From NCBI GenBank assembly GCA_021298595.1, contig JAJTHL010000009.1, positions 1-64,000 on the forward strand: a stretch of DNA of 64,000 bases, written 5' to 3'. Each line of letters opens with the position of its first letter. Within the stretch, counting starts at the first letter, position 1. The stretch is from Alphaproteobacteria bacterium (GTDB lineage Bacteria > Pseudomonadota > Alphaproteobacteria > Caedimonadales > UBA1908). Below the pieces are notes generated by a model. That model made no database searches. It had not been told where the DNA came from and saw nothing but the letters and a program-made list of their open reading frames with translations. Of the stretch, positions 56,283 through 64,000 are shown piece after piece. The position numbers and the translations under genes were made by a program.

Positions 56283-57090
56283 TCATTTTTTTCTGACAGC
56301 GCTTGCCGCTGGGGCGCTTTTCTGTCTTATCTCAGGACCTCTTGGCTCGTTGATCTTATGGAAGCGTCTGTCCTTTTTTGGAGACGCGTTGGCCCACGCT
56401 TCCTTGAGTGGTGTGGGACTCGCACTTCTGTACAATATTTCGCCCCTTTGGACCGTGGCGGTTGTTTGCCTGGTTATTGGCCTTTTTCTTTCTTTTATCC
56501 CACAGTTTTCGACCCTTTCTAGGGATACTTGGCTTGCCATTCTCTCCCATGGATCTTTGGGGCTGGGTCTATTTATTTTCTCGTTGGTGCCAGGAAGCCA
56601 GCACCTCCTGTCACAAATTCTGTTTGGTGATATCTTAACCATTGCGCCAAGTGATCTTATCCCCTTAGCTGTGATCTCTTTGATCTCGTTGATATGTCTT
56701 GTGTTTTATTGGAAACCCCTTTTGGCAGTGACAATTCATGAGGATCTTGCCCAAGTTGAAGGTCTTCCTGTTCAGCGCCTTAAGAGCATTTTTATGATTC
56801 TTCTTTCACTCACCATCGCTGTTGCTGCCCAGTTTTTAGGAATTTTACTCCTGACAGCCCTTCTCATTTTTCCTGCAACTGGGGCGCGCCTTGTGACGAA
56901 GACCCCCACCCGCATGGCAGCCACAGCAAGCCTGATCGGCTTTTTAGGGTTAACTTTGGGCCTTTTGATTTCAGGGACCCTCGATACGCCCGCAGCCGCC
57001 TCCACTGTGCTCGCTCACATGGTCCTCTTAACCTTGCTTGGGTTGGTTTTTTTCTTACAAAAGATATTTTTAAAAAAACATCGCCCCTAA
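56275..57090 (+). CDS. znuB: Zinc ABC transporter permease (ZnuB-like)
   Basis: A 271-residue permease with about eight helices; GSLILWKRLSFFGDALAHAS is the ZnuB family motif, and LILPATGARL-like FPATGARLVTK and the terminal helices fit. With the ATPase upstream it forms a high-affinity zinc (or manganese) importer core. The periplasmic metal-binding ZnuA is not in the window. ATG 56275 lies inside the end of znuC after GGAG; the frame reaches further back but only within znuC. Confidence 0.9.
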   Translation: MIDHFFLTALAAGALFCLISGPLGSLILWKRLSFFGDALAHASLSGVGLALLYNISPLWTVAVVCLVIGLFLSFIPQFSTLSRDTWLAILSHGSLGLGLFIFSLVPGSQHLLSQILFGDILTIAPSDLIPLAVISLISLICLVFYWKPLLAVTIHEDLAQVEGLPVQRLKSIFMILLSLTIAVAAQFLGILLLTALLIFPATGARLVTKTPTRMAATASLIGFLGLTLGLLISGTLDTPAAASTVLAHMVLLTLLGLVFFLQKIFLKKHRP

Positions 57091-57167
57091 GGTTGGGTCA
57101 ATTTTGTCATGATTGTTGCCATTAAATCACATTTTTGGTGGCCGCGATCTTTTTGTACGCCAACACA

Positions 57168-57196
57168 TTGACCTCTTTGAAAGATGGGCATAGTCT
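57168..57196 (+). promoter_or_regulatory. Putative sigma-70 promoter of the small lipoprotein gene
   Basis: TTGACC (57168-57173), 17 nt and TAGTCT (57191-57196) give a plausible promoter, with a start near 57203 and a 37-nt leader before ATG 57240. Confidence 0.5.
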
Positions 57197-57239
57197 TTTG
57201 TCGGGTTTTGTACCCTATTTGCAAATGGAGTAATAGATA

Positions 57240-57503
57240 ATGACTTCTTACACAAAAGTCTCAGGTGTTGCCTTGCTCGCGACCCTTTTGCTTAGCGCCT
57301 GCTCTCACCAACAAAACAACGGGTGGGCTAAGGACTGCGATAAGTACTATTCTTATGATTCCCGTGAACATGCTAAGTGCATGGAGCGCGCGACATCCGG
57401 CAGCCCCGCCACACAATCAGCGCCAGGCACCGTTGTCACAGATCCCGAGGACACCAAGTACCCAGCCGAGGGGACACACGGTTCTGAAAAGGGTCGTCAA
57501 TAA
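57240..57503 (+). CDS. Small lipoprotein of unknown function
   Basis: An 87-residue lipoprotein with lipobox LLLSAC at about residue 21. The mature peptide has a KDCDKYYSYDSREHAKCMER segment with two Cys 14 apart, then a Pro/Ser/Thr/Gly-rich tail. Not recognised. The Cys-bounded core could be a small folded domain and the tail a flexible arm. It has its own promoter-like element and a strong bidirectional terminator, so it is a single-gene unit at the edge of the accessory region. GGAG lies ten bases before the start. Confidence 0.75.
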   Translation: MTSYTKVSGVALLATLLLSACSHQQNNGWAKDCDKYYSYDSREHAKCMERATSGSPATQSAPGTVVTDPEDTKYPAEGTHGSEKGRQ

Positions 57504-57515
57504 CCTAAGCTTAAT

Positions 57516-57547
57516 AAAAAAAGCGGGGGAGTTCCCCCGCTTTTTTT
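57516..57547. terminator. Bidirectional rho-independent terminator
   Basis: AGCGGGGGA and TCCCCCGCT pair around a short loop, with an A-run before and a seven-T run after. It sits between the ends of the small lipoprotein gene and the papain-like protease gene and serves both. Confidence 0.93.
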
Positions 57548-57562
57548 ATGGCCTTACTTTCG

Positions 57563-58894
57563 TTATTGACCTTCGATGAGCACACCGCCCTCAGAGGACT
57601 GTACCAAAGCAACAGACTGAACCATCTCAAGTTTCTTTTGCTTTTCTTTTTTCTTTTTCTTCTTATCTTTTTCCAGCAGGTTCGTCACAAACTCCCACCC
57701 TTTTTTCGCCACAGGAAGGAGATCGTCAAAATTTAACCTAAAGGCGGCGGCGGCTTTTTCAGCGTTCCATTCCTTTACTTTTTGAGCAACGGCATGTTCT
57801 TCAGCCTCTAGCTTCCCTTTAGCGATATGGCTTTCTACCTTTGCTGTATTCACAATTTTGGAGATATTCCACAGGTCATAAAGCGCCCCTCCACTGGAAC
57901 TGCTGGTCACCATGCTGTAAGGAATATAGCAGTATCCCTTATCACCCCAGTTGGTAGACCAAGAGTTTCTGACGATGAAGTGTTGATAGTAAGGGTTAGC
58001 CTTGCCACTCACTGTTTGACGATCATCATACCCCACAAAGAGCATGGCATGTCCTCCAGCGATCTGCTCTGAGGCGGGATTAGGCACGGGGACGATGCCC
58101 GTCTTTGCAACGTTTGCAGACATGAAGGACTCGTACAGGGTGATCCCGAACATGACCGTTTTGCCTTTGTTGAGGTATCCTTTAATGGCGTCAACGTTCG
58201 GGGCCACTTTATTATAAGAAACACCCGTTGAGTTGAAGTACTTGAGACCAGCCTTGTAGGCGGATGGTTTTGGCTGTCGTTTAAACGCGTCACCTTGATC
58301 TGTGTAAGGCAATACGCTTTCTGGTATCAAGCCGTAATCAATGGACTGGGCGGCATCCGCAATGGTGGCACCGCTATCTTGATCGAGATACTCATTTTCG
58401 TTCCCCTCAGCCAGTCCCATAATGTCACGTGCGTGATAGTAGTGAGCAAGTCTTGCAAAGTTGGTGAATTTCCCTGTGGCCCGAATCATTTCAGCTTTGA
58501 TACATCCCTCAAGAGAGTGGGCGGTACATGATCCAAGCTCTCCTTGGTCTTGGATCGGAGAGAGAACGGAGCGCAAATCGACATTTTGTACAGGTTTTCC
58601 TGTCCTTAACCTCATTACGGGCGCTTCTGATGGTTGGGGTTTAAGCGCTTGTTTTTGTAGCTTACGTACCCTGTTTTTCTCTGCTGTATGCTCAAGCTTT
58701 TCAAGACTTTCTCCAGCAGAGGGTGTGTTGTTCAGCTTGTAGCGGCCGCGTAGAAAATCGGGATCATGGTGCGGCGTCACAGCCACGGCTACAGCTGCGC
58801 CGTCACCAGCCTCTTCTTGCAACCCATCCGAGCAAAAGGCGGGTGCCACAAGCATTGTTCCTAAGGTTAAAGAAAGTAAAAACTGTCTCTTCAT
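57563..58894 (-). CDS. Exported papain-family (C1A) cysteine protease
   Basis: A 443-residue protease with a signal peptide (LLSLTLGTMLVAPAFC), a pro-region to about residue 104 and a C1 domain. The active site is complete: oxyanion Gln117 and Cys123 in QDQGELGSCTAHSLEG, His282 in GGHAMLFVGYD, Asn310 in VRNSWSTNWGDKGY. The C-terminus adds a helical tail with a Lys-rich run (EKDKKKKKKEKQKK) and is not in classical papains. GGAGG lies seven bases before ATG 58894. Secreted C1 proteases are used by some host-associated bacteria to act on host or competitor proteins. A related pro-region-only gene lies upstream at 59311-59613. Confidence 0.92.
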   Translation of the reverse strand: MKRQFLLSLTLGTMLVAPAFCSDGLQEEAGDGAAVAVAVTPHHDPDFLRGRYKLNNTPSAGESLEKLEHTAEKNRVRKLQKQALKPQPSEAPVMRLRTGKPVQNVDLRSVLSPIQDQGELGSCTAHSLEGCIKAEMIRATGKFTNFARLAHYYHARDIMGLAEGNENEYLDQDSGATIADAAQSIDYGLIPESVLPYTDQGDAFKRQPKPSAYKAGLKYFNSTGVSYNKVAPNVDAIKGYLNKGKTVMFGITLYESFMSANVAKTGIVPVPNPASEQIAGGHAMLFVGYDDRQTVSGKANPYYQHFIVRNSWSTNWGDKGYCYIPYSMVTSSSSGGALYDLWNISKIVNTAKVESHIAKGKLEAEEHAVAQKVKEWNAEKAAAAFRLNFDDLLPVAKKGWEFVTNLLEKDKKKKKKEKQKKLEMVQSVALVQSSEGGVLIEGQ

Positions 58895-59310
58895 TCACGT
58901 TCCTCCTGTTACGTACTTTTCAATCGTCCCTCCTATAAGGACCCGAAAAGTGTGACAAGAATCCGTAAACGAAATACTAACAAAACATTTTATCATTATT
59001 AATATAGAAAAATAATTTAAGGAATTACTATTTCTATAATAGATAAATCAACAGGTTGATATTTTTCTATTTATTTAGAGCATCTTAATAGACATCGTCA
59101 GTTATGCTTTTGAAATATTTGACAAAGACCTCAAGAAGGAAACCTCATATTGAAAGGAGACAATAACCTTAAAAAAGCCTAGGGGTGACAAGGTTCATCC
59201 AGGGACATCAGCAAGGGCACCTCGTGGACGCGAAGCAAGACGTTCGCGCGGTTTTCTGACCAAGAGGCCCCAGGCCTTATTTCCCAAAAAGGGGCAGTGA
59301 CCACTTGTTT
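58895..59310. other. Intergenic stretch, A/T-rich in the middle
   Basis: About 416 nt without a supportable gene. It should hold the promoter of the protease; the part 58960-59070 is strongly A/T-rich. A leftward TTGTCA and TATAGG pair is visible near 58936-58965, but with a 15-nt spacer. From 59163 to 59300 a reading frame of basic residues follows an AAGGAG but has no start codon. Confidence 0.5.
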
Positions 59311-59613
59311 TCATAGGCTGTCTTGAGTCGCGGTGCGGTCTTGAGACGGAGACGCGGCGTCTTTTCCTGGGTGCTTATGCTTTTGATAAGATTTATGTTC
59401 TTCCGCTTTTCGCTCTAAGGTTTCAAGGCTTTTCCCCGAGGAGGGTTTGTTGTTTGGCTTGCGTTGCATATAGCGATGCATGAGAAAATCTGGATCGTGG
59501 TAAGGATTAACAGCGGGGCTCTTTTTGCCTTCATCTTCTTCCCTCTCACTTGAGTGCGCCGGCGTGGCGACAGTGCACCCCATGGTTAAGAACAATAGCC
59601 AATGCGCTTTCAT
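59311..59613 (-). CDS. Small exported protein copying the pro-region of the C1 protease
   Basis: A 100-residue protein with a signal peptide (LLFLTMGCTVATPAHS) and a strong GGGAGGG ribosome site before ATG 59613. Residues 39-71 align with protease residues 43-72: HDPDFL, RY, NN-x-PS-x-G-x-SLE-x-LE and AE are shared, with a short insert. The catalytic domain is absent; the protein ends after a Lys/His/Pro/Ser-rich tail. It is either a truncated paralogue or a free-standing pro-peptide that could inhibit or chaperone the protease. The intact signal peptide and ribosome site favour continued expression. Confidence 0.7.
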   Translation of the reverse strand: MKAHWLLFLTMGCTVATPAHSSEREEDEGKKSPAVNPYHDPDFLMHRYMQRKPNNKPSSGKSLETLERKAEEHKSYQKHKHPGKDAASPSQDRTATQDSL

Positions 59614-59797
59614 ACATCCCTCCCTTGTTGGTGAGCAGGCATGAAAGATACGACTTATATGCTAACAAATGGTTACTAAATCCTTGATGCTAGCCCTCGC
59701 CCAAAATTAACTACGCTGTCCAGTGACAACCCTCTTCTTTGGTTGTCATGGCCGGAGGTTACGGGGGGCGTCGGCGGGGACCATTCCCCAACACCAT

Positions 59798-59829
59798 AAA
59801 AAAGGGAGCCCCAAAGGGCTCCCTTTTTT
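59798..59829 (-). terminator. Rho-independent terminator of the giant repeat-protein gene
   Basis: GGGAGCCC (59804-59811) pairs with GGGCTCCC (59816-59823), flanked by six A and six T residues. It lies 30 nt past the stop of the repeat-protein gene. The symmetrical A/T runs mean that it could act in both directions. Confidence 0.9.
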
Positions 59830-59858
59830 ATGCTTTGTCCAAGACAGGCTCAGGGGGC

Positions 59859-62800
59859 TTAATAAAGAAGCCCCATGGGTCGGCCTACGTTTCGGTAGTG
59901 GTTGGCAAGCTCTTCAAAGAGATCCGCAACGGGGACGTCTCTGACAACATTCATGAGCAACTGCTGATTTCTCATCAAGTAAAAGGCTGGATGGAAATCC
60001 TGGGGTAAGTCTTGGTAGAAATGCCTTTCTTGCATTTGACGCAAAAGTTCACGTGCTTTATGGGGTCGATGCTCATTTGCCCCAAAGTCAAGATAATGCC
60101 CTGGTAGTTCCCCCAGCATTTGTTCTACGGTATAGTTACCATCGATAAAATGCTGCATGAGGTTGGGATTGAGGGCAAGATACACCCCCGCATTAAACCC
60201 TCTGGGCAGACCAAAGTCATCGAGCTCATCTGCTTCCTCGTCCCCGCCAAGGGCGCCCCCTGGTTGAGCAGGTTGGGCCTCCGCGTCCTTATACTTGAGG
60301 TTCAGGCGCCGACCTTGTGCGAGGTAATGCGTTTCTGGGTTAGCGAACTGATCGCGGATCTGCTCTGCAAAATCGGGATTTAGGCGCAGATACGCTTCGG
60401 CGTCAAAATCAGCTGGCAAATCGGCCATGTCTACCTTGTAAACCCGGCCCTGCGCCTGCCCATGGGCGGCGTAGTGAAGGAGCCCCGCATTGCGTATAAA
60501 AGCCGGCAATGTGTCCCGCACGTCTGGGTTAAGTCGCTCATAGCGATACGCATCAAAATCATCTGGGACGTTGTCAAGATTTATCCTATACGCTTTTCCT
60601 TCGCGCCTGCCATAGGCAAGGTAATGTTCTTCGACCGTTATGTTGTGGTCCATGGTGAAACGGGTGATGTCAGGATTAAGGATTTCATACGCAGCTTCGT
60701 CAAAATCATCTGGCAACTCATCATAGTTCAGTTGATAGATTCTATCTTCGTTTCGACCATTTTCCCGGTAGTGATTGATGGCAGCCTGTAGATTTCCTTT
60801 AACTGCTTCCTCAACATCCGGGTACAATCTAAGGTACTCTTTTACATCAAAGTCATGGGGCACGCCTTCGAGGTTTAGTTTGTAAACTCGGCCTTCAGCC
60901 CGCCCATGGGCGGCGTAGTGAACACGCGCAGCAAAGGGTGAGCGCACGGTTTCTGGCAAGTCTGGGTTAATATCCATATAGTCAAAGCCATCAAAATCAT
61001 CTGGGACATCGTTAAGGTCCACCCTGTAGGCTTTTCCTTCGCGCTTGCCATAGGCAAGGTAGTGTTCGCGGGCGTATAAGCCGTTTTCCTGTATAAGCTG
61101 AGCGATGTCAGGATGGAGAACTTCATAGACAACGTCATCAAAATCAGCGGGCACCTCATCATAGTTTACCTGATAGATTCTGCCTTCGTTTCGACCGTTT
61201 TCCCGGTAGTGATTAATGGCACCCTGGGGATTTTCTTGATACGCTTTCTTAACATCGGGGTAGAGGCGAAAATATTCATCTATATCAAAGTCCTGGGGAA
61301 CACCCTCAAAGTCTAGCTTGTACGGGCGGTTTGCTTTTTGCCCATAAAGGAGAAAGTGTTTTTCTCGTGCCATATAGTCGTCATCATCCAATTGGGGGAT
61401 GATATCTGGGTTTAATCTTACATAAAGACGCGCATCAAAATCTTCCGGCAAATCTTCAAAGTCGATTTTATAGATTCTGCCTTCGTTTTGACCAGAAGTG
61501 CGGTAATGATCAACGGCGCCTTGTAAGTTATTGCCGTACGCAGCCTGAAGATCTGGATAAAGCCGTAGATACTCTCGGACATCAAAGTCAACGGGAACCC
61601 CTGTCAAATTAAGTTTGTAAAGGCGCCCTTCGTTCTTTCCATGGGCAAAATAGTGGTCTGCGTACGCTTGAGGGTCATCGCCTAAGGCTTCCTGCAGCCC
61701 AGGATTTAAATGACGATAGGCCTCGGGATCAAAGTCTCCTGGCAGACCCGCCAGGTTAAGACCCTCTTTATACGGCCTGCGCTCCTTTATACCGTGGTTG
61801 CGGAAATGGTCTGCGTAGGCTTGTAGATCATCCCCGTAAACTTGAACCAGATCTTGGTTCAAGTGGCGATACTGCGCTGGATTAAAATCCCGAGGCAGGC
61901 CAAACACATAGGGGCCCTCCCGGTAGGGCCTTCCGGCGTCGCGTCCCACGTCATGATAATGCCTTGAGATCTCGATCTCGTCCATATCTTGCAGAACATT
62001 TTCCAAATCAGGGTTCAAGCGCCTGTACTCACGGGGGTCAAAATCCAAGGGGTTGCCTAAGCTATGTTGAAGGGCTGCGTTCAATACTAACCGCATCGGC
62101 AAATGTGCGCACTGTGCCATCAGGTAGGGATCGTTCATCATACGCTCCATGGCCGGCAAAACCGCGTCCAACACGCGCTGATCTCTTGCGAGATCTGCAG
62201 CGTCCCTTGGATTTTCCCTAAGCTTTTTTTCATGCTCCACCCGCAAGATGTGTTTCACATCATCCGCGCGGTAGGGCAGTTTTTCAACACCCCCGCGCGC
62301 CGCATAATGGTTTTTTGCAAGGTCAATAAATTCTTGAAAAGTAGGGTCCTCGTCAACCTCTTTTAAGAGGGCATTTTTTCTCATCTTATTAATGTCATCT
62401 TGAATCTGTGGATTCAAGAACCCATAGGCCATGGGATTAAAGTCGGCGGGGATGCCCCTTTCGTCCAGGACAATAGGAGTTTTGGGTGGCTGAGGAAGTG
62501 GCCGGTCTTGCTGGAAATGGGGTTCTAGATTCCTTGCCTTTTCAAAGGCCTCTTCCATGGTCAGGGTTTCAAAACGTTCGGCATAGCGCAAAACCCTTGT
62601 AAGTTTCATGGCGCCCTTGAAACGCTCTGCTGCTTCGCGGCGCGCGCGCACCTGCTCTCTTGTATCTTGAGGCATATCGCGGATCCGCCGGCGCAGTAAT
62701 TCTTCTTGAAAGCCAGGATGATCCTCAAAGCCAGCCGCGGCGTAATGATTTCTTGCAGCGTCCACCATTTGACCCACAGGCAACCGCCCGAACTCTGCCA

Positions 62801-64000
62801 TCAAGTCTGGGTAAAGCATCAGGTAGACAAAGGGGTTAAAGTCCAAAGGAACGCCGAAATCGTCAAAAACAGCCTCAGCAAGGTCGCTGTCAGGCCCATC
62901 TATGCCCCGGATACGATCATGAAAGCCCGTGGACAATCTGTCGTCAGAATCCTCCTCAGACGAGTCTTGTCCTTGTGAATACCCACCTCCTTGATAAGGG
63001 CCGCCTACGATCCTTATCTCCTCATCGTCATCAGAAGATGAGCTGCTGTATCCCCCCTCGTCGTCAGAAGATGAGCTGCTGTCTTGCTCTTCAAACCATT
63101 GACGAAGTCTGTGTTGATCTTCTCTCGACAGCCCCCCCCCTTGGTCACCATCAGAAGATGACGCGGGACCTGCGCTACCAGAAATGTTCAGATCTGCAAA
63201 GTCGCCGATGACTCCAGGCAACGAAACATTGTCCAGTGCTCGATCAAAAACGTGCTCAAGGGTCACGTTTTGAAGAGCTTGCCTTGCCGCTTCGTCGCGA
63301 CTCAAATAGGTCGCAGGATGAAAGTCAACGGGCAGGCCAAGGTGATGGAATTGACCGCTTGTTCTTCTTAAAAGCTCTGCTTCTGTGTAAGGCCTTCTTT
63401 CCATTCGCCCATGATCAATGTAGTGTCGCTTAGCGGTTTCAATGGCTAAGGGAAGTGTTTGTTGACCATAGGCCCTGACAAGATCCGCGTTAAGGGCAAG
63501 ATAAGCAAACGCATTGAAATTTTGGGGGACAGTGCCTGCTTCTTCTTCAGACAAAAAAGTTCTGTAGACGCCCCCATGGGCCAGGTAATCTTGCAACGCC
63601 AAACCATTTATCACATCCGTAAGCGATCGATTTCCAAGTCTTGCTTTGGCTCCTGGATTTAAGCCGATATACAAAAGGGGATCAAAATCCTCGGGTGCGA
63701 CGCCAGCCTCTGGATGCTGCCCGATGCGCACCTGTTCTGTGGTGTGACGGTTTTCTCTAGCGCCATTATCTGCGTAATGGCGTTTTGCCATCTTGAGGGC
63801 TTCATTCAAGGTAGTAGGGCGCCGATTTAAGCCGGTCGTTGAAAACGCGCGCCTTAGATCCTCGTGTTCACTCAGATAGATTGCCGCGTTAAAGCCATGG
63901 GGGACGCGAGATCTTAAATTGACAAATCCTTTTTCTAACTCATCATAAATTGAGTCAGGATTGGTGACCCAGTGATCTTCTGAGACGGTCTTGATTTTGC
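59859..64000 (-). CDS. Giant tandem-repeat protein, 5' end outside the window
   Basis: At least 1379 codons, open to the right edge, so the N-terminus and any signal peptide are not visible; TTG 63809 is not the true start. The sequence is built from about 20 copies of a 45-60-residue repeat: (V/L)P-x-DF(D/N), Y-x2-LNPD(L/I), a variable helix, HY-x4-G-x3-GR-x-Y. Copies near the N-terminus carry longer spacers. Between the first four copies and the rest lies a linker of about 110 residues rich in Ser, Asp, Glu and Gly (SSSSSDDEGGYSSSSSDD). Related shorter repeats are known in bacterial surface and glycosyltransferase-linked proteins. Function unknown; adhesion or scaffolding are guesses. Confidence 0.85.
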   Translation of the reverse strand, partial: KIKTVSEDHWVTNPDSIYDELEKGFVNLRSRVPHGFNAAIYLSEHEDLRRAFSTTGLNRRPTTLNEALKMAKRHYADNGARENRHTTEQVRIGQHPEAGVAPEDFDPLLYIGLNPGAKARLGNRSLTDVINGLALQDYLAHGGVYRTFLSEEEAGTVPQNFNAFAYLALNADLVRAYGQQTLPLAIETAKRHYIDHGRMERRPYTEAELLRRTSGQFHHLGLPVDFHPATYLSRDEAARQALQNVTLEHVFDRALDNVSLPGVIGDFADLNISGSAGPASSSDGDQGGGLSREDQHRLRQWFEEQDSSSSSDDEGGYSSSSSDDDEEIRIVGGPYQGGGYSQGQDSSEEDSDDRLSTGFHDRIRGIDGPDSDLAEAVFDDFGVPLDFNPFVYLMLYPDLMAEFGRLPVGQMVDAARNHYAAAGFEDHPGFQEELLRRRIRDMPQDTREQVRARREAAERFKGAMKLTRVLRYAERFETLTMEEAFEKARNLEPHFQQDRPLPQPPKTPIVLDERGIPADFNPMAYGFLNPQIQDDINKMRKNALLKEVDEDPTFQEFIDLAKNHYAARGGVEKLPYRADDVKHILRVEHEKKLRENPRDAADLARDQRVLDAVLPAMERMMNDPYLMAQCAHLPMRLVLNAALQHSLGNPLDFDPREYRRLNPDLENVLQDMDEIEISRHYHDVGRDAGRPYREGPYVFGLPRDFNPAQYRHLNQDLVQVYGDDLQAYADHFRNHGIKERRPYKEGLNLAGLPGDFDPEAYRHLNPGLQEALGDDPQAYADHYFAHGKNEGRLYKLNLTGVPVDFDVREYLRLYPDLQAAYGNNLQGAVDHYRTSGQNEGRIYKIDFEDLPEDFDARLYVRLNPDIIPQLDDDDYMAREKHFLLYGQKANRPYKLDFEGVPQDFDIDEYFRLYPDVKKAYQENPQGAINHYRENGRNEGRIYQVNYDEVPADFDDVVYEVLHPDIAQLIQENGLYAREHYLAYGKREGKAYRVDLNDVPDDFDGFDYMDINPDLPETVRSPFAARVHYAAHGRAEGRVYKLNLEGVPHDFDVKEYLRLYPDVEEAVKGNLQAAINHYRENGRNEDRIYQLNYDELPDDFDEAAYEILNPDITRFTMDHNITVEEHYLAYGRREGKAYRINLDNVPDDFDAYRYERLNPDVRDTLPAFIRNAGLLHYAAHGQAQGRVYKVDMADLPADFDAEAYLRLNPDFAEQIRDQFANPETHYLAQGRRLNLKYKDAEAQPAQPGGALGGDEEADELDDFGLPRGFNAGVYLALNPNLMQHFIDGNYTVEQMLGELPGHYLDFGANEHRPHKARELLRQMQERHFYQDLPQDFHPAFYLMRNQQLLMNVVRDVPVADLFEELANHYRNVGRPMGLLY
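60436..61315 (-). repeat. Two tandem copies of a three-repeat block (about 438-444 bp) inside the giant gene
   Basis: Within the repeat protein, three successive repeats (types A, B and C) occur as A-B-C-A-B-C. For example TGATAGATTC with its surroundings at 61171 recurs at 60733 (438 bp apart), and the RVYK codons at 60880 recur at 60436 (444 bp). Each type matches its partner better than it matches its neighbours: A has INHYRENGRNE, B has EHYLAYG and EGKAYR, C has HYAAHG. One further A-B-like pair lies before them. Confidence 0.85.
63028..63082 (-). repeat. 33-bp tandem repeat in the acidic Ser/Asp linker
   Basis: The 19-nt string TCAGAAGATGAGCTGCTGT occurs at 63031-63049 and again at 63064-63082, 33 bp apart (11 codons), with a shorter third match near 63153. 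It encodes the repeated Ser-Ser-Ser-Ser-Asp-Asp segments of the linker. Confidence 0.85.

Follow-up and report, generated by a model that had tools for sequence, protein, structure and literature searches.

Free-standing pro-region proteins by which a parent protease is regulated are known from eukaryotes and, among bacteria, for SpeB. CTLA-2 and BCPI are, like crammer, stand-alone I29 inhibitors. Beside SpeB, Streptococcus pyogenes encodes Spi, a propeptide analogue that inhibits the protease specifically, and the staphostatins and Bfi proteins are likewise products of small inhibitor genes adjoining bacterial cysteine proteases (PMC2873492). Crammer is a propeptide-like protein, a free-standing relative of the papain-like protease N-terminal region (PMC3551606). 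In Plasmodium, the gene of the stand-alone propeptide-like inhibitor SUB1-ProM adjoins genes for members of the protease family that it inhibits (PMC6993865).

The locus described here lies in a window of 64,000 nt (the whole stretch of DNA that was analysed), where a small gene both neighbours the gene of a secreted papain-like protease and is homologous to that cysteine protease's own N-terminal region. Spi/SpeB, in which a bacterial cysteine protease gene stands beside a small propeptide-analogue gene, is the closest precedent in arrangement. However, SpeB is a C10 protease of a Gram-positive species, whereas the protease here belongs to C1A and the shared segment to no recognised family; here the small gene is also located upstream of the protease gene, and an inhibitory role is only proposed. 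Crammer, CTLA-2 and BCPI are similar in being free-standing relatives of a papain-like protease N-terminal region, but they are eukaryotic, and at this locus there is no I29 match and the linker, the would-be cleft-traversing segment, is missing. The analogy with eukaryotic stand-alone C1 pro-peptides drawn in an earlier, sequence-only reading of this DNA thus holds for the arrangement but not for the segment, which is not I29, or for the small protein, which has no linker; Spi/SpeB is closer. SUB1-ProM is also a stand-alone propeptide-like protein beside protease-family genes, though of the subtilisin family and in a eukaryote, and the staphostatins and Bfi proteins share the placement of a small gene beside a bacterial cysteine protease but are lipocalin-like and not derived from a pro-region. 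Part of the xylellain N-terminal sequence is said, in work by Leite from 2013, to block the active site. Xylellain (PDB 3OIS), whose substrate is unknown (PMC12090721), is the closest solved relative of the protease catalytic domain, but its alignment with the protease covers the catalytic domain alone. The pair belongs to none of the Spi/SpeB, SUB1-ProM or crammer types, as the catalytic family or the module differs in each case, and searches of the open-licence literature turned up no comparable pair involving a bacterial C1A protease.

Locus organization in two genomes

The genome carrying the window (1.72 Mb, 43 contigs, 97% complete) is of the same genus as the alphaproteobacterial MAG MCMED-G24, and all evidence within the genus comes from these two genomes. 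The features of the locus are as follows.

59790-59835, no strand assigned: intrinsic terminator hairpin separating the small gene from the large repeat-protein gene (-30.5 kcal/mol, z -6.7)
59618-59626, minus strand: Shine-Dalgarno-like AAGGGAGGG before the small gene (sequence)
59311-59613, minus strand: small secreted protein gene, 100 aa (ORF; blastp to the protease N-terminus; 99-aa orthologue in MCMED-G24)
59401-59508, minus strand: small protein core, residues 36-71, NPYHDPDFLMHRYMQRKPNNKPSSGKSLETLERKAE, predicted helix-loop-helix (identity pattern; AlphaFold2 helices)
58895-59079, minus strand: conserved AT-rich region upstream of the protease, likely its own promoter or leader (local alignment with MCMED-G24)
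57563-58894, minus strand: secreted C1A papain-like (xylellain-type) protease, 443 aa (PF00112; xylellain 3OIS by sequence and fold)
58679-58777, minus strand: protease copy of the core module, within its N-terminal region, residues 40-72 (sequence comparison)
58571-58678, minus strand: protease linker, residues 73-108, absent from the small protein (32/36 identical between the two proteases)
57920-58585, minus strand: Peptidase C1 catalytic domain with Gln117, Cys123, His282 and Asn310 (Pfam and residues)
57515-57545, no strand assigned: bidirectional terminator hairpin after the protease (-20.2 kcal/mol, z -4.4; scan)

The 100-residue ORF and the protease ORF lie where the sequence-only reading had placed them, on the same (minus) strand with the small gene upstream. 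Gene order around them is identical in MCMED-G24: a large serine-protease-like repeat protein is followed by a hairpin terminator, the small gene, a spacer (416 nt in the window, 424 nt in MCMED-G24) and the protease, after which come a terminator, a small lipoprotein-like gene on the opposite strand and ABC transporter genes that look like znuB and znuC in both genomes. The MCMED-G24 small gene encodes 99 aa (L026:7412-7711), and its protease has 440 aa and is 80% identical to that of the window.

The large secreted repeat protein (59859-63809 and beyond; L031:860-5893, minus strand) has 1677 aa, compared with 1159 aa in MCMED-G24 (L026:3390-6869, plus strand). By eye its N-terminal part is trypsin-like, with THG, DICIGVLD and GGDSSSP motifs, and is followed by many repeats of the form FDPxxYLxLNxDL...HYxxxGxxExRxY, whose number differs between the species. 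It has no Pfam domain above the cut-off, and its N-terminal part has no PDB match. Near the cluster, both genomes also encode a conserved protein of 442-445 aa (L031:6346-7683, at about 65345-66682 and outside the window; L026:1624-2952), with a signal-like N-terminus and, by eye, a methyltransferase-like motif (VLVNADAYGRLSLKALRYNAHLRVIYNDMDPQ); an exported methyltransferase-like protein would be unusual.

The protease

Judged by its amino acid sequence, the protease (443 residues) carries a signal sequence at its N-terminus. Pfam Peptidase_C1 (PF00112) matches residues 104-325 (E 1e-15; 58.9 bits against a cut-off of 20.7), the other Pfam match being C39_2, below threshold, and the catalytic tetrad Gln117-Cys123-His282-Asn310 is intact. 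Xylellain 3OIS is the nearest solved relative of the catalytic domain by sequence (E 1.8e-23) and the top fold match of the predicted structure (E 8e-19); the predicted papain fold and the Gln-Cys-His-Asn residues support assignment to C1A (PF00112), xylellain type. No other PF00112 gene occurs in the genome, and dN/dS between the window genome and MCMED-G24 is about 0.10 for the protease pair.

Beyond the catalytic domain, the C-terminal tail (residues about 342-443; 57563-57868) is lysine-rich, with a KKKKKKEK run and long predicted helices, and is nearly unchanged between both species. Another genome of the order, G006, has close to a contig end a xylellain-type catalytic fragment (L033:6118-7403) that begins within the domain and overlaps with other reading frames, and it seems to be broken, frameshifted or misassembled.

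The small protein and the protease N-terminus

The small protein consists of a signal peptide (about residues 1-21), an acidic stretch, the core module and a variable tail. The ATG start shortly follows the Shine-Dalgarno-like AAGGGAGGG. The signal peptide and strong ribosome site previously noted for this gene are both visible in the sequence. At the rate at which stops occur in the intergenic DNA on either side, 100 open codons would arise by chance with a probability of about 0.003. Searches of the small protein against Pfam and NCBIfam returned no match.

From residue 1 of both proteins, the small protein and the protease N-terminus are identical at 37/85 positions (44%; BLASTP E 2e-17), and HDPDFL, RY and NNxPSxGxSLExLE motifs are common to the two. 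The alignment spans the first 82 protease residues and ends before any catalytic sequence, which agrees with the earlier observation that the small protein has no catalytic domain. The copied segment stops at about protease residue 72, leaving uncopied the 36-residue linker that precedes the catalytic domain, and the small protein is therefore part of the pro-region and not the whole. The sequence-only claim of a pro-region copy accordingly stands as regards homology and motifs, but has to be narrowed, both by the missing linker and by the fact that 'pro-region' is a positional term for the N-terminal segment of this protease.

Age, selection and distribution

Identity between the two small proteins is about 50%, and that of the window has 36-43% identity with the two protease N-termini. 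A quartet test grouped small protein with small protein and protease with protease in 2000/2000 bootstraps, and both small genes have a three-residue insertion after the RY motif. Together these indicate that the duplication and the loss of the catalytic part predate the split of the two species. No third copy of the module was seen in either genome.

Synonymous sites of the small gene pair are saturated (pS 0.77; pN 0.31). Core residues 36-71 are nevertheless 75% identical (27/36), as opposed to 32% (20/63) outside the core (Fisher p 5e-5). Neutral simulation at the protease dS gave about 16% amino acid identity, with a core mean of 5.6/36 and a maximum of 14, and a 1% chance of a frame without a stop; the observed core is far above this expectation. 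As judged from sequence comparison, the small gene is under selection and is a real gene. The two checks proposed in the sequence-only reading, conservation at the present length and a measure of selection, thus both came out in favor of the gene, by comparison with a single relative, MCMED-G24, in which the place is occupied by the 99-aa orthologue in the same gene order and neither a disrupted or missing gene nor a full-length paralogue was encountered.

Outside the small gene and the protease, the module was not detected at E 10 in either genome of the genus, and no further copy was found in 10 genomes of the order or in 385 sampled genomes of the class. Viral contigs and solved structures gave no match. 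Two genomes with other alphaproteobacterial xylellain-type proteases contained no convincing free-standing copies of the pro-segment, the one stray match having an E of 0.18. Given its absence across the order and the class sample, the arrangement is a genus-level invention as far as is visible, and its reach, on sequence searches, is one genus and two genomes.

Expression signals

In both genomes, a strong hairpin terminator separates the repeat-protein gene from the small gene and a bidirectional terminator follows the protease; scans gave no coding-strand terminator between the small gene and the protease. The 185 nt before the protease (58895-59079) are conserved with MCMED-G24 (local alignment score 117, against a shuffled maximum of 33), although nearby synonymous sites have strongly diverged, and the protease therefore probably also has its own promoter. 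Given this conserved upstream region, co-transcription and co-expression of the two genes are no more than possible. As for a shared regulatory motif, the window contains no significant second match to a 16-mer taken from the protease leader, and Rfam gave nothing in 57000-64000.

Core module and linker

The pattern common to the four sequences is approximately DPx(F/Y)LxxRY...NxPSxGxSLxxLExxAE. AlphaFold2 predicts two helices in the small-protein core, at mature residues 20-28 and 42-59 (block pLDDT 65-84; overall pTM 0.26). Between the two proteases, the module is 64% identical (21/33) and the linker, residues 73-108, is 89% identical (32/36; Fisher p 0.02). The order of conservation is thus reversed: the core is the best kept part of the small protein, but in the protease it is less well kept than the linker, which is the best-conserved stretch of the N-terminal region and has no counterpart in either small protein. 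In papain-type zymogens, the stretch directly ahead of the catalytic domain crosses the cleft. The small protein is therefore without the likeliest cleft-blocking part, and does not simply duplicate a propeptide that fills the cleft. In the AlphaFold2 model of the protease, the first 78 mature residues are unplaced on the enzyme (pLDDT 34-42), and a cleft occupant is not indicated.

An I29 identity of the segment was ruled out, since neither the small protein nor the protease has a Pfam match to the I29 profile (PF08246), which describes pro-domains of the ERFNIN/GNFD type. PF08246 was not detected in the genome, a weak result given that controls also gave no match. The N-terminal regions of other secreted xylellain-type proteases from Alphaproteobacteria seemed by eye to resemble the segment (Y..L..PS..SL), but this likeness did not stand up to a shuffle test (p 0.067-0.84) and was discarded.

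Possible functions of the small protein

The small gene probably encodes a partner or regulator of the protease. By analogy with Spi and SpeB, and with a probability that falls just short of even, its product may be a secreted partner that holds the protease in check by binding to it in trans. The small protein, a secreted and maintained free-standing version of the predicted helix-loop-helix segment at the N-terminal end of the protease, would bind the neighboring protease in trans at the surface used by the protease's own module, and would restrain or buffer it outside the cytoplasm until the enzyme reaches its place of action. Because the linker is missing, any inhibition would be exosite-based or allosteric, or would come from holding the module's own binding surface, rather than from a full plug of the active-site cleft. 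The N-terminal region would then be a pro-region, its module would bind the catalytic domain, and that binding would be inhibitory. Such a partner is favored by the homology, the orthologue and gene order, the age of the pair, the constraint on the core, the restriction of the module to two genes, the presence of a single PF00112 gene, the placement of both genes on one strand flanked by terminators, and the Spi and SUB1-ProM precedents. Against it count the absence from the small protein of the linker (32/36), which would be the obvious part to occlude the cleft, the AlphaFold2 model, in which the N-terminal region is not docked onto the catalytic domain, the lack of significant kin among other xylellain-type N-terminal regions (lowest p 0.067), the conserved upstream region that the protease has to itself and the restriction to two genomes.

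Some of the same observations can be read differently. The core may instead be a shared docking module that targets a surface, an envelope protein or the neighboring serine-protease-like repeat protein, where the small protein would compete or cooperate with the protease with no catalytic inhibition. Retention of the core and not of the cleft-proximal linker, the predicted helix-loop-helix of the core alone, the lower conservation of the core in the protease (21/33 against 32/36) and the adjoining gene for a large secreted serine-protease-like repeat protein in both genomes all fit such a role, but it is unlikely, as the module occurs nowhere else in either genome and there is no sign of a wider docking system. 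Many secreted proteases have pro-regions that help them to fold. Subtilase pro-regions are a documented case (PMC6993865), and the signal peptides suggest the same export route for both proteins here, so that the small protein might act as an intermolecular chaperone of the exported protease by providing the module in trans; this is less probable still, since the protease already has its own module in cis and would seem not to need another in trans in order to fold. Least probable by a wide measure is a functionless relict of a truncated tandem duplicate, which the sequence-only reading had regarded as the simpler explanation. A partial copy does adjoin its likely source, and the flanks outside the core diverge fast (20/63 identical), but an intact orthologue of near-equal length occupies the same place in the one relative compared, the duplication is older than the species split, and the core is 75% identical despite saturated synonymous sites, which the simulation excludes under neutral drift; a decaying duplicate or pseudogene is therefore rejected.

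Restraint of the protease in trans by the small protein would, if correct, make this conserved C1A pair in a Gram-negative bacterium an independent invention of the same control logic. It is conceivable, if somewhat doubtful, that this is the first bacterial C1A (xylellain-type) protease-regulator pair in which the regulator is a free-standing copy of the protease's own non-I29 N-terminal module and acts as a helix-loop-helix at an exosite, not as a plug of the cleft. The locus would then provide a minimal 36-residue module with which to ask whether a pro-region acts in trans without a cleft-blocking segment. If the core is instead a docking module, it would still point to a partner of a secreted xylellain-type protease.
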